DNA of 44,134 bases, taken from the NCBI GenBank assembly GCA_002067755.1, contig MVQH01000084.1, positions 1-44,134 of the forward strand, written 5' to 3'. Position 1 is the first letter of the stretch. The number at the start of each line of letters is the position of its first letter. Under the pieces are notes generated by a model. It worked only from the letters and a program-made list of their open reading frames with translations, was not told the DNA's origin and did no database searches. A program made the translations under genes and the position numbers. The stretch comes from Methanosaeta sp. PtaB.Bin018. GTDB lineage: Archaea > Halobacteriota > Methanosarcinia > Methanotrichales > Methanotrichaceae. Shown here in pieces: positions 36,138 to 40,499 of this stretch.

Positions 36138-36989
36138 ATGGCCTCCAACTGCTATCCATGCATATTGGATCGGGCCAAGTTCGAGAGCGACCTGGTCCTC
36201 TCATCAGAGGCAGAGAAGAAGGCTGCTATTGAGGAGCTGGTGGACTTCATGGCCTGCCACAAGGGAGGAGTTCCTGCCCTGGTAGGGACCGAGAGGGAGA
36301 GGATCATAAAAAGGCGCAGTGGAAAGTCCGATCCGTATCAACTCCTAAAAGAGGAGAGCAACCGCGTTGCAAGGAGTCTCCTGCCTGTGGCTGAGAGGTT
36401 CTACGAGGAGGCAGATGATAAGATCGAGGCATTGATCCGAATAGCCGCCGCAGCCAACTCCATGGAGTTCGGCGTCAAGGGCCACGACTTCGACAACTCC
36501 ACATTTGGGAGCGTCTTCCTGATCACTTTGCGCGAGCGGCTGGCTGGCGATATGGAGGAGGTGAAGAGACGCCTGCATAGCTTCAAAAATATCTTCTATC
36601 TGACAGACAACTCAGGCGAGGCGGTCTTCGATCTGTTTGTGATCGAGAAGCTCAGGGATATGGGCAAGAGCGTCGCGATAGGATCGAAGTCCAAGCCCAT
36701 CTTGAACGATGTGACTGCAGAGGAGATAGCCGCCATGACATGCGAACGTGTCGTGCCCACGGGCGATGTGGTTGGAACATCCCTGGAACACTTGAGTCCT
36801 GAGGCTTCGGCGCTTTTGAACAACCCGGACTGGCTTGTTCTGTCCAAAGGCATGGGAAACTTTGAGACGATCTCTGAATACGATCAGATGCTGTCAGGGC
36901 GACTTATCTATGTGTTCCGCGCCAAGTGCGAGCCCGTGGCCATGAAGATGAACGTCCCCAGGGGAACGCTAGTGGCATGCCCGGTTTAA
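36138..36989 (+). CDS. DUF89 damage-control phosphatase family protein
   Basis: The 283-aa protein begins MASNCYPCILDRA, with the CxxC found in archaeal DUF89 proteins, and has the family motifs FYLTDNSGEAVFDLFVIEKL with the metal-binding Asp-Asn, and SKGMGNFETIS near the C-terminus. DUF89 (ARMT1-like) proteins are metal-dependent phosphatases thought to remove damaged sugar or nucleotide phosphates. The position after AMP phosphorylase supports a sugar-phosphate target; this is inference. The frame extends to 36066 within the HDAC gene, but the ATG at 36138 fits the family start. Its stop overlaps the stop of the convergent PAC2 gene in a TTAA. Confidence 0.9.
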   Translation: MASNCYPCILDRAKFESDLVLSSEAEKKAAIEELVDFMACHKGGVPALVGTERERIIKRRSGKSDPYQLLKEESNRVARSLLPVAERFYEEADDKIEALIRIAAAANSMEFGVKGHDFDNSTFGSVFLITLRERLAGDMEEVKRRLHSFKNIFYLTDNSGEAVFDLFVIEKLRDMGKSVAIGSKSKPILNDVTAEEIAAMTCERVVPTGDVVGTSLEHLSPEASALLNNPDWLVLSKGMGNFETISEYDQMLSGRLIYVFRAKCEPVAMKMNVPRGTLVACPV

Positions 36990-37648
36990 CGGTAGTTCAT
37001 GTCCACGTCTTCGGGAACGAACTGTTCGGGACCCTCGGTCTCCTGCTCCATCAGAGATATCTCCAAATCGAGATTAAGCAGTCCTTTCAATGCCTCCAAG
37101 AGGCTCGTCGCAGCTCTTATGTCCACGAGGTCTTCTCCAGTGCTCGTTCCGAGCAGGCAAAAGCCGCGCATTTCATGCAATGGCGCAAGCCCGGCCAGAA
37201 GGCCGTTCAGGCCTCCGATGGCACCAGTCCTCAAGAGCGGAATTTTATTTTGCGCTAAGGCAGCGGCGCTGTCAAAGTCGCTGGCAGCGCCCAGCACCTT
37301 CTCCTTTGTGTCTCCAACATAAGCTGCCAGGGTTATGACGTCGGTCACCTTTTCTTCCTTCAATGTTTCAAGGACCTCTCCGGCCAGCAGATACATTCCC
37401 ACAACATCCAGCGGCTGGGCGTCGCCAGACAGGAGCAGCATATTTTTTCTGTTTTTTGGAACCTTCAGTTCGGCATGCAAAAGCTCAGACATTCCATTGG
37501 AGACCATAACTTGCGCTGGAAAAACACGCGAAAAAAAGGACTTGTATGTGCTGGACTCCAGCGCCGTGGCAAGATACTCGCAAGCCACCTTGCCTACGCT
37601 CCCAATTCCAGGAAGTCCAGCAATGCATATTTTACATGATTCAAACAT
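36986..37648 (-). CDS. PAC2-family protein (proteasome assembly chaperone-like)
   Basis: The 220-aa protein shows the archaeal PAC2 fold: ICIAGLPGIGSVGKVACEYL at the start, MLLLSGDAQPLDVVGMYLLAGEVL, VITLAAYVGDTKEK, IGGLNGLLAGLAPLHEMRGFCLLGT. Archaeal members (PbaA/PbaB-like) are homologues of proteasome assembly chaperones; some bind PAN. In this window PAN lies 5 kb away. The ATG at 37648 has no strong Shine-Dalgarno. The upstream exported-protein gene ends 4 bp before it, so the two are co-transcribed. Confidence 0.88.
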   Translation of the reverse strand: MFESCKICIAGLPGIGSVGKVACEYLATALESSTYKSFFSRVFPAQVMVSNGMSELLHAELKVPKNRKNMLLLSGDAQPLDVVGMYLLAGEVLETLKEEKVTDVITLAAYVGDTKEKVLGAASDFDSAAALAQNKIPLLRTGAIGGLNGLLAGLAPLHEMRGFCLLGTSTGEDLVDIRAATSLLEALKGLLNLDLEISLMEQETEGPEQFVPEDVDMNYR

Positions 37649-37652
37649 CGTT

Positions 37653-38267
37653 TTACTTGCCCACAGCCCTGATCATCCAGTTGACCTTTATGGTCTCATT
37701 TGTATCCGTCATCTTGAACTGAGCAGGAATCATCTGGCCATTCATGAAGAAGTACGAGTTGCCTGTCCCGCTGTCGCTTTCCATGGCGATGCCCATGGCT
37801 CCCCTGTCATAAAATACCACGTAGAAATCGCCTGTCACCTGCAAAGCTGGTATCTCAATTGCGCTGAATCCCGTTGGTGGAGTCGTGGAGAGGAAGTAGT
37901 TATTCTGCTCGTCTGCAAACTTGTAGAGCAGGTTGTAGTCTTTGTCTCTTATCTCTATGAGGAAGTTCCTGTCAGATGGAAATGTCTGTGTGGTATTATT
38001 AAATCCGCTCCAGCCCATTACCTCGATCCAATTAAGCTTCCATCCGGCATTGGGGGCAGTGAATTTCACAGCTTCGCCCACGTTGATACCACTTATTCCA
38101 AAGTCGTTTATGGCTGAGTAGAGCGAGAGGTTCATATCCGACAAGTTCTTTCCGCTGTCTGCTCTGAGAATGGTCAATTTCGATGTGCTCGTGGAATCCT
38201 CCGCCATTGCATCAAAACACAGTGCTGCACAACATAAGGCGGCAATTATTATGATACTCTTCTTCAA
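37653..38267 (-). CDS. exported beta-rich protein of unknown function
   Basis: I chose the TTG at 38267, which follows GGGTGATAA and yields a clean signal peptide (LKKSIIIIAALCCAALCFDAMA). The ATG at 38303 or the frame opening at 38381 would put polar residues before it. The mature part of about 180 residues is rich in strands: LNWIEVMGWSGFNN, NFLIEIRDKDYNLLYKF, FYVVFYDRGAMGIAM and a final VNWMIRAVGK, suggesting a jelly-roll or Ig-like domain on the cell surface. I do not recognise the family. It precedes the PAC2 gene on the same strand. Confidence 0.7.
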   Translation of the reverse strand: MKKSIIIIAALCCAALCFDAMAEDSTSTSKLTILRADSGKNLSDMNLSLYSAINDFGISGINVGEAVKFTAPNAGWKLNWIEVMGWSGFNNTTQTFPSDRNFLIEIRDKDYNLLYKFADEQNNYFLSTTPPTGFSAIEIPALQVTGDFYVVFYDRGAMGIAMESDSGTGNSYFFMNGQMIPAQFKMTDTNETIKVNWMIRAVGK

Positions 38268-38390
38268 ATTATCACCCAACGAGAGCCATTGAACTCTATC
38301 CATATATAGGTGCTGATGGAGTTGATCTGGATTTTCCAAAGGTATCAGCTCCTTGCAACCTGTGGGCATCCTGTGACACATGTTATATTA

Positions 38391-39161
38391 TTATGTTTTT
38401 ATTCTGCATTTTGCAGCCTTCTGCACGCTTTGATCTGGGTCTTGAGCCAGTTGCATCAGCGTCTTTGCAGTCGTTCTCGGGTTTGAGGCCACAGCCTCAC
38501 GAACCCTCCAGGACCAATGGCAAGAGAGCTCCTCCAGGATATTTTCGTTGAGGTTTATGTTTCTGGCCACCGCCTCCCTGATCTCCCAGCTCTTGTCCGA
38601 TGCGAGGGCTGCCAGTGCCGCCTGTGGTGTCCTCGGGTTCGATGCAACTGTAGCCCGGACATCCATGATTCTGTCAGATGATAGATAGACGAGCAGATCC
38701 TCTGGCGTCGAGGGATTTTGGGCGATGTTGTTTCGAACAAGCCAGCTCACATCCTTTGCCAGCCTGCTCATCAGCTCAGCTCTCATAAGAGGATTGGATG
38801 CTGCCGCTGCCCTGACATGCTCATCTAAATCGCGAGCCAGATACTCCAGTGTCTCTTGATCGACGTTCCTGTTCCGCGCCACAGCCTCCTTCACCAGATA
38901 TCTGTTCTTTTGCAGAGTGCTGTCGTAGTCCACCATCTCATCGCCTGCAAGCATCTCCAGGATCTTGGATGGTGTTCGGCTGTTCAAAGCAACTGCTGCC
39001 CTGACGAAGCCGGAGCTGTCGGCGGCAAGCCTCTCAAGCGCATCCTGCGAGGCCTTAGCATTTCCTGCCACCGCCTCTCTTACCCATTGTACTGGATCCC
39101 CGGCAAGGACCTTCAAGATCTCTTCTGGGGTGCCAGAATCCCAGGCAACCTTGCGGCGCAC
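38391..39161 (-). CDS. LRV-type helical repeat protein
   Basis: The 256-aa protein consists almost wholly of about nine repeats of 26 residues with the pattern VREAVAxNPxTPxxxLxxLAxD, as in the leucine-rich repeat variant (LRV) and HEAT-like superhelices. The third repeat carries an insertion of about nine residues. There is no N-terminal Fe-S cluster segment like that of the Azotobacter LRV protein. The annotated start is a GTG at 39161, but the frame upstream still reads as a repeat (ELSRSWDWH before VRRKVAW) up to a stop near 39220, with no usual start codon there. It lies 38 bp after the VLRF1 gene, which suggests a shared mRNA and possibly a scaffold role. The partner is unknown. Confidence 0.8.
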   Translation of the reverse strand: MRRKVAWDSGTPEEILKVLAGDPVQWVREAVAGNAKASQDALERLAADSSGFVRAAVALNSRTPSKILEMLAGDEMVDYDSTLQKNRYLVKEAVARNRNVDQETLEYLARDLDEHVRAAAASNPLMRAELMSRLAKDVSWLVRNNIAQNPSTPEDLLVYLSSDRIMDVRATVASNPRTPQAALAALASDKSWEIREAVARNINLNENILEELSCHWSWRVREAVASNPRTTAKTLMQLAQDPDQSVQKAAKCRIKT

Positions 39162-39199
39162 ATGCCAGTCCCAGGATCTTGAGAGCTCAAATGGATCGT

Positions 39200-40147
39200 C
39201 TATTGGCGTGCGAAATCACATCCATTTTGTTCAATTCGATAGCATTTGAAGCCATAGACCTCATCGAGCAGCCTGTCCAGCCTCTTTTCATCATGCCGAT
39301 CAAGCCGCCGCTCCACCACAGGGAGCCCTAATGCTGGCGCAATCTGTTTCATTAGGCTCAGATCTCCGCCCAGCACCGCATACTTGACCACTGATGCATA
39401 CTTTGCCCTGAACTCTGCCAGTCTCTGGAGCACAGCCTCAATGTGGTTCGATACATCCTCCTCGCGCAAACGCTCAAATCTTTTCTGGCTCCAGCCTCCT
39501 TTGCTGTGCTTCTCTTTAACCTGGCTTTCCACAAACTCCTGCACCTCAAAGGCATCCCTGCCAAATGCCACCCCTAAAAGAGTGTCTCCTGCGTGGGCTG
39601 AGACTACAAGCACTGGCATCTCCATCAGATCTCGCAGATGATCGAGCTGGAATGTGCTGCCCTCGGCTGAGGAGCATTCGAGAATTGGAAATGGGGGGAC
39701 TAGCAGCAGGGTGAAGAGCTGAGGATATCTCAAGAATACCCAGCCACGTGTCGACTTGACGGCCCGGGCATATCTCTCTGCTTCCGGCGGAAGGCCACTG
39801 TTGTCGGGCAGAAATGCTGTCAGAAGATCGTCCATTGGAGAGCGGCATGTCTGCAGGCGTCTCATGAGCCCCTCCATCTCACGGATGCTGAGCCTCGTTC
39901 CAGGCGGATGGGCTCGTCTCTCCTCCAGGATTGTGGTTCCAGCAGCAGTCGATGCCGCCATCCTCTGTTCTGTTGCCTTGAGGGCCAATTTGGCCTCCTG
40001 GTAGGCTGATGCGAGCTTGCGGATCTTCTCCTCCCTCTTTTCTAAAGTTCGCACTAGCTCTTCATTCTCTCGTCTCAGCTCTGCCATGCTAAATTCCAGC
40101 TCGTGGATGCGGTCAGCCAGCTTCTTTTTGCCGAAGAGATCTACCAA
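39200..40147 (-). CDS. Vms1-like (VLRF1) peptidyl-tRNA hydrolase
   Basis: The 315-aa protein starts at a TTG with GGGAGGCAGGAG upstream. Residues about 10-65 are a charged coiled coil. The C-terminal half holds an eRF1-domain-2-like fold with the motif GGWSQKRFER at about 217-226. The Gln in this loop (about residue 221) corresponds to the catalytic Gln of Vms1/ANKZF1-type release factors. Then follow HIEAVLQRLAEF and YAVLGGDLSLMKQIAPAL. These proteins free nascent chains from peptidyl-tRNA on split or stalled ribosomes. A TATA-like element lies near 40207-40220, between this gene and the tRNA. Family assignment is by motif; activity is inferred. Confidence 0.82.
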   Translation of the reverse strand: MVDLFGKKKLADRIHELEFSMAELRRENEELVRTLEKREEKIRKLASAYQEAKLALKATEQRMAASTAAGTTILEERRAHPPGTRLSIREMEGLMRRLQTCRSPMDDLLTAFLPDNSGLPPEAERYARAVKSTRGWVFLRYPQLFTLLLVPPFPILECSSAEGSTFQLDHLRDLMEMPVLVVSAHAGDTLLGVAFGRDAFEVQEFVESQVKEKHSKGGWSQKRFERLREEDVSNHIEAVLQRLAEFRAKYASVVKYAVLGGDLSLMKQIAPALGLPVVERRLDRHDEKRLDRLLDEVYGFKCYRIEQNGCDFARQ

Positions 40148-40260
40148 ACTCCTGCCTCCCGATGACCCGGGTCAGCCAAACTGCAGAATCAATTCATCCA
40201 TCAGAAATATTTATTACACAATGGTAACATCTGATTTATCATCGCCAGGACATGGAGCGA

Positions 40261-40347
40261 CGGACTCGCTGGGACTCGAACCCAGGTCAGCGGGTTTCTT
40301 CGAAAGATCTCCGAAGCCCGCTAGGATGTCCTCTACCCTACGAGCCC
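40261..40347 (-). tRNA. tRNA-Arg(TCG) with a 15-nt intron
   Basis: On the minus strand the 5' acceptor GGGCTCG pairs with CGAGTCC (one G-U), followed by a G discriminator. The D-loop has A14, G15, G18G19 and A21. The anticodon arm is GCGGG-CTTCGGA-CCCGC with anticodon TCG, and the T arm is CTGGG-TTCGAGT-CCCAG. A 15-nt intron (40296-40310) follows position 37. CTTCG/CGAAG with 3-nt bulges GAG and AAA gives the bulge-helix-bulge cut by archaeal splicing endonuclease. CCA is not encoded. It stands upstream of the VLRF1 gene on the same strand. Confidence 0.92.
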
Positions 40348-40499
40348 ACCAAATATGGTTCAAGGTAATTTCCATGCTATTAACCTTTCCCAAAAGAGGC
40401 AGATTCGATTAATTATAAGTGTCTACCGCATGGTTTATTAATAATCAGGTCGGAAGGCAGACTCCGAGTGCAGTACACCAAGATCAGTCGTGTGGTAAC

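Follow-up and report, generated by a model that had tools for sequence, protein, structure and literature searches.

Conserved linkage of an archaeal Vms1-like release factor gene with an LRV-repeat protein gene in the Methanotrichaceae

The archaeal aVLRF-1 family of release-factor-like proteins was described by Burroughs and Aravind in 2019 as having an N-terminal coiled coil and a GGxSQ motif but no Pelota domain (PMC6514570). According to the same study, the eukaryotic Vms1 derives from bVLRF-1 (PMC6514570). Mutations of G292, Q295 and R288 in yeast Vms1 cause a strong loss of function (PMC5989216). In the literature searched, no experimental test of archaeal nascent-chain release after ribosome splitting was found.

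The window, i.e. the whole stretch of 44,134 nt analysed here from Methanosaeta sp. PtaB.Bin018 and contig C84 of this Methanothrix genome, carries on its minus strand, in this order, a tRNA gene, the gene of an aVLRF1 protein (VLRF1), the gene of an LRV-repeat protein (LRV), the gene of a protein lacking Pfam matches and the gene of a PAC2-family protein. The features of the locus are as follows.

39200..40147, minus strand: aVLRF1 release-factor-like protein, 315 aa, TTG start (Pfam, AlphaFold2, Foldseek)
39911..40138, minus strand: N-terminal long helix or coiled coil of VLRF1, residues 4-79 (AlphaFold2; extension in 35 aligned homologues)
39623..39898, minus strand: degenerate eRF1 domain-1-like region, residues 84-175 (profile alignment to 4af1/3agk; AlphaFold2)
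39236..39613, minus strand: RNase-H-fold peptidyl-hydrolase domain, residues 179-304 (eRF1_2 and acVLRF1 matches; AlphaFold2; Foldseek)
39464..39520, minus strand: catalytic loop and start of the next helix, VKEKHSKGGWSQKRFERLR, residues 210-228, with the catalytic Q221 (invariance in 35 sequences)
38391..39161, minus strand: LRV-repeat (HEAT-like alpha-solenoid) protein, called from GTG 39161 (Pfam, AlphaFold2, 1lrv match)
39162..39203, minus strand: probable N-terminal part of LRV ahead of GTG 39161, IDDPFELSRSWDWH, which overlaps the VLRF1 stop codon (alignment with 12 relatives)
40259..40348, minus strand: tRNA-Arg(UCG) with a 15-nt anticodon-loop intron, upstream of VLRF1 (ARAGORN with introns allowed; relatives)

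The intron of the tRNA at c[40259,40348] is canonical. Neither Rfam nor ARAGORN with default settings detected this gene, and the SeC(TCA) anticodon that ARAGORN assigned with introns allowed was rejected as an artefact of intron placement, as the tRNA at the same place is Arg(TCG) in several relatives. An intron-bearing tRNA is retained upstream of VLRF1 in several genera. On the other side of the pair, the 242-aa protein encoded between LRV and PAC2 (37653-38381) has no match in Pfam or NCBIfam; a homologue occupies the same place in the nearest relative (L061). The PAC2-family (proteasome-assembly-chaperone-like) gene at 36986-37648, on the same strand and two genes downstream of LRV, is also common to the nearest relative and not to the other Methanothrix loci read.

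The first-pass annotation of this DNA had paired the two genes and named linkage in relatives as a point to check, its absence being half of the condition that would refute the claim; the claim withstood this half. Among the Methanotrichaceae, LRV immediately follows VLRF1 on the same strand in 35/35 genomes with both genes on one contig, a set made up of 29 genomes and six more taken from coordinates (G119, G130, G152, G161, G217 and G252). In these genomes, the most plausible LRV start lies between ~38 nt before and ~170 nt after the VLRF1 stop. In four further genomes (G024, G026, G028 and G036) the two genes fall on different contigs, VLRF1 lying at the edge of its own. Genus g4 (G028 and G036) was considered as a counter-example with broken linkage and was rejected as such, since its VLRF1 contigs end just past the gene and have repeat-like flanks. 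In this genus, repeat-like sequence around the VLRF1 end and the LRV start (L071:1-1135, L072:9987-10141) apparently breaks the assembly there. Neither gene was found in four incomplete Methanotrichaceae genomes; among these, the G023 contig breaks off at the nuoE gene next to the locus, and in G009 this place is rearranged. Each sampled Methanotrichaceae genome has either both genes or neither, and the PF01816 matches in 25 scanned Methanothrix genomes all fall in the VLRF1-adjacent LRV gene. The genes immediately outside the pair vary by genus (nuoE/F-like, PAC2, GyrI-like, coenzyme A biosynthesis-like and others, several of these names being assigned by eye), so the two genes have stayed together more stably than the region around them. 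In the main texts of the open literature searched, no description of the pair was found, and the conserved pairing seems to be unreported.

Outside the Methanotrichaceae the picture is different. In a profile search of 295 Halobacteriota genomes (E 1e-10), the LRV protein was found in 11/11 Methanotrichaceae vs 0/284 other genomes, whereas clear aVLRF1 orthologues are present in most Methanosarcinaceae, in haloarchaea and in families f8, f18, f25 and f27. Judged by the LRV profile, gene order and sequence starts rather than by a full domain scan, no LRV neighbour of aVLRF1 was recognised in the loci read from Methanosarcinaceae, haloarchaea and other families. The gene next to aVLRF1 encodes DUF7109 in 22 Methanosarcinaceae genomes, and in the Methanosarcinaceae loci read it is followed by a gene for an FtsJ/RlmE-type rRNA methyltransferase with a TRAM domain. 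Examples of this arrangement, which is possibly a 50S-related operon, are L076:8617-11046, L084:6688-9140, L104:6780-9233 and L105:7489-9891. In family f27 (G177; L096:873-4011), aVLRF1 is convergent with a gene whose start resembles EF-2 by eye. Haloarchaeal DUF7109 is present but unlinked to VLRF1; together with its occurrence where VLRF1 is missing, this led us to reject DUF7109 as a universal VLRF1 partner. LRV as a generic archaeal RQC scaffold was rejected as well, because it is absent from 284/284 sampled non-Methanotrichaceae Halobacteriota genomes. The confinement of LRV to the Methanotrichaceae, with DUF7109/RlmE in the same slot of most Methanosarcinaceae, suggests that LRV is an accessory particular to this lineage and no general component of archaea, and the existence of aVLRF1 elsewhere without a recognised LRV neighbour suggests that the factor can fulfil its general function without LRV.

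Our preferred joint reading, to which we assign a probability of about 0.5, is that VLRF1 releases nascent chains on the split 50S subunit and that LRV is a Methanotrichaceae-specific accessory binding VLRF1 or the 50S/nascent-chain complex. From the conserved co-directional adjacency of the genes we infer a physical or functional partnership of LRV with VLRF1; LRV may even be a 'dedicated scaffold', as the first-pass annotation called it. A more specific version, in which LRV is a dedicated aVLRF1 partner that takes over in trans a role which flanking repeat domains may play in cis in eukaryotic Vms1/ANKZF1, binds the factor on the 50S and couples release to the handling of the freed chain, appears doubtful. 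A tentative but credible alternative is that VLRF1 is a rescue release factor and LRV is unrelated to it in function, the two genes having simply stayed side by side since the ancestor of the Methanotrichaceae. The absence of LRV wherever aVLRF1 is found outside the family would fit with this, as would the DUF7109 and RlmE genes that hold the downstream slot in Methanosarcinaceae and the tRNA-Arg that is also often kept upstream without obvious functional reason. However, simple inheritance accounts less well for the turnover of the other flanking protein genes between genera, which the VLRF1-LRV pair does not share, for the close or overlapping arrangement of the two genes in many genomes, and for their strict co-occurrence in the sampled Methanotrichaceae, where four incomplete genomes lack both.

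The properties of VLRF1 itself bear on the first part of the preferred reading. The protein matches the Pfam families acVLRF1 (E=2.6e-15) and eRF1_2 (E=2.9e-7) and keeps an intact K-GG-x-SQ-x-RF-x-x-LR. In an alignment of 35 archaeal homologues from Methanotrichaceae, Methanosarcinaceae, haloarchaea and other Halobacteriota families, 13 columns are invariant (V210, H214, K216, G217, G218, S220, Q221, R223, F224, R228, E230, H235 and G261), and 9-10 of the 13, including the catalytic Q221, lie in loop residues 210-228. The AlphaFold2 model (mean pLDDT 89) consists of one helix (residues 4-79), an eRF1 domain-1-like region and an RNase-H-fold domain, after which the chain stops (residue ~304 of 315), so that there is no C-terminal Pelota domain; an N-terminal extension matching the helix was found in the 35 aligned homologues. 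The GGxSQ loop is modelled with low confidence and is probably flexible. The coiled coil, the Pelota loss and GGxSQ match aVLRF-1, and hence VLRF1 is, by profile, fold and motif, a member of this family described in 2019, and this part of the locus was already known. VLRF1 is under purifying selection (dN/dS 0.20 vs the nearest relative).

The top structural matches of VLRF1 in Foldseek are the archaeal aRF1 structures 4af1 (E 1.5e-10) and 3agk, with low whole-chain TM-scores of 0.2-0.3, probably because the domain arrangement and the coil differ. VLRF1 profile positions 87-282 align with aRF1 9-235, which reveals a remnant of the eRF1 stop-codon-binding domain. In the profile alignment to 4af1/3agk, NIKS of aRF1 falls in a gap and YxCxxxF was not found in VLRF1, suggesting that VLRF1 cannot read stop codons canonically. 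Its most likely role is peptidyl-tRNA release on the split 50S, independently of a stop codon. The release action, including its substrate, chemistry and timing, is proposed by homology to Vms1 and eRF1. After a stalled ribosome is split, VLRF1 would enter the empty A site of a 50S subunit still holding peptidyl-tRNA, on which its coiled coil and degenerate eRF1-like domain would dock. The K-GG-W-S-Q loop would then set Q221 at the peptidyl-transferase centre and the nascent chain would be freed, VLRF1 working as a single-component, stop-codon-independent release factor, while the LRV alpha-solenoid, by binding VLRF1 or the 50S/nascent-chain complex, might recruit, position or regulate the factor. 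The genome of the window also encodes an NFACT/NEMF (NEMF/RqcH-type) homologue (G000:C96, 6e-60), which makes an RQC-like pathway plausible.

Two other activities of VLRF1 were weighed. A 2026 review calls Vms1/ANKZF1 a CCA-end endonuclease (PMC12868832), and VLRF1 might likewise cleave the CCA end of tRNA instead of hydrolysing an ester bond; we consider this unlikely, as the GGxSQ loop of aVLRF1 is closer to that of the GGQ release factors, a likeness in sequence that cannot tell the chemistry. The second activity is that of Balon-like factors, which are among the Foldseek relatives of VLRF1, weaker than aRF1; Balon is presumably a member of the bacterial baeRF clade. That aVLRF1 with LRV serves in ribosome hibernation or A-site occupancy in the manner of Balon, and does not release peptidyl-tRNA, would agree with the frequent lack of the catalytic Q among members of the baeRF clade (PMC6514570) but is very unlikely, because aVLRF1 keeps GG, S and Q without exception in the sequences aligned whereas the baeRF families thought to be inactive usually lose Q (PMC6514570).

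The proposed accessory of the release factor, LRV, holds about ten LRV repeats of ~24 aa, with matches to PF01816 (E=2.3e-42, 140.9 bits against a cut-off of 21.6) and to LRV_2 (1.8e-15). Its AlphaFold2 model (pLDDT 95.9) is a nearly all-helical solenoid with one short beta-hairpin insert (residues 92-101) in a conserved stretch at residues 88-103, and among solved structures its sequence is closest to 1lrv (E 1.9e-9 over the repeats). The gene is under purifying selection (dN/dS 0.16 vs the nearest relative). These results, together with those on VLRF1 and the tRNA, bear out most of what the first-pass annotation had described, namely a Vms1-like release factor with its catalytic loop and N-terminal coiled coil, a superhelical LRV protein next to it on the same strand, and an intron-bearing tRNA upstream.

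The distance of 38 bp between the two genes given there did not hold up equally well, since it depends on GTG 39161 as the LRV start. The LRV frame upstream of this codon contains no ATG, GTG or TTG and stays open as far back as 16 nt ahead of where the VLRF1 stop codon ends. When the relatives are aligned, the residues encoded before GTG 39161 (DDPFELSRSWDWH) line up in each case with the beginning of the repeat array; in the extended frame L7, W13, R16 and R17 are invariant in 13 sequences, with L7 and W13 preceding the GTG codon. As conserved first-repeat residues precede that codon, the true start probably lies upstream of it, or else the first half-repeat has been lost, and the 38-bp gap is therefore not secure. 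Most LRV relatives have an ATG upstream, whereas the window and the nearest relative (G014) have no ATG, GTG or TTG there; the candidate start position 39203 reads ATA in the window and GTA in that relative. A Methanothrix relative whose LRV does begin at a canonical codon is the G012 locus (L065). In the window, translation may begin at ATA 39203, a non-canonical codon that overlaps the stop of VLRF1. The two most similar genomes have a VLRF1 C-terminus that is ~10 residues longer and extends across the region in which LRV usually starts (39161-39218). A programmed frameshift fusing VLRF1 to LRV was considered, as the frames overlap, and was dropped for want of supporting evidence.

The view that such a system would be new for archaea proved too broad, for aVLRF-1 was described in 2019 (PMC6514570) and LRV occurs only in Methanotrichaceae among the sampled Halobacteriota. 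The new part is the conserved VLRF1-LRV linkage, a lineage-specific variant of a known release-factor family and not a new system. Methanothrix combines aVLRF1 with a NEMF/RqcH-type protein and with an obligate genomic neighbour, and aVLRF1 occurs widely across Halobacteriota. A putative partner that is specific to the lineage and tracks the factor through genome rearrangements offers a handle for pull-down and for reconstitution of the archaeal RQC release step.

In comparison with known systems, VLRF1 belongs to the same family as aVLRF-1, sharing the coiled coil, the remnant of the stop-codon domain, the RNase-H fold with GGxSQ and the lack of Pelota; unlike the locus here, the main text of the aVLRF-1 account mentions no LRV or HEAT neighbour (PMC6514570). 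With aRF1/eRF1, the closest solved fold (4af1, 3agk), VLRF1 shares the GG..Q loop, but it has no NIKS, YxCxxxF or C-terminal domain and has a coiled coil added. The LRV protein is built of the same repeat as the Azotobacter LRV protein (1lrv). The Azotobacter protein carries an N-terminal Fe-S cluster, for which there is no room here, as LRV has two cysteines in all and neither is conserved among relatives. Vms1/ANKZF1, the eukaryotic RQC release factor, shares with VLRF1 the superfamily clade, the catalytic Gly/Ser/Gln loop and the expected substrate, peptidyl-tRNA on the split large subunit. The relation between aVLRF1 and Vms1 is only distant, however. The Rei1 zinc finger and ankyrin repeats of the Vms1 type have no Pfam match in VLRF1; as a separate protein, LRV could be no more than analogous to the Vms1 ankyrin part.
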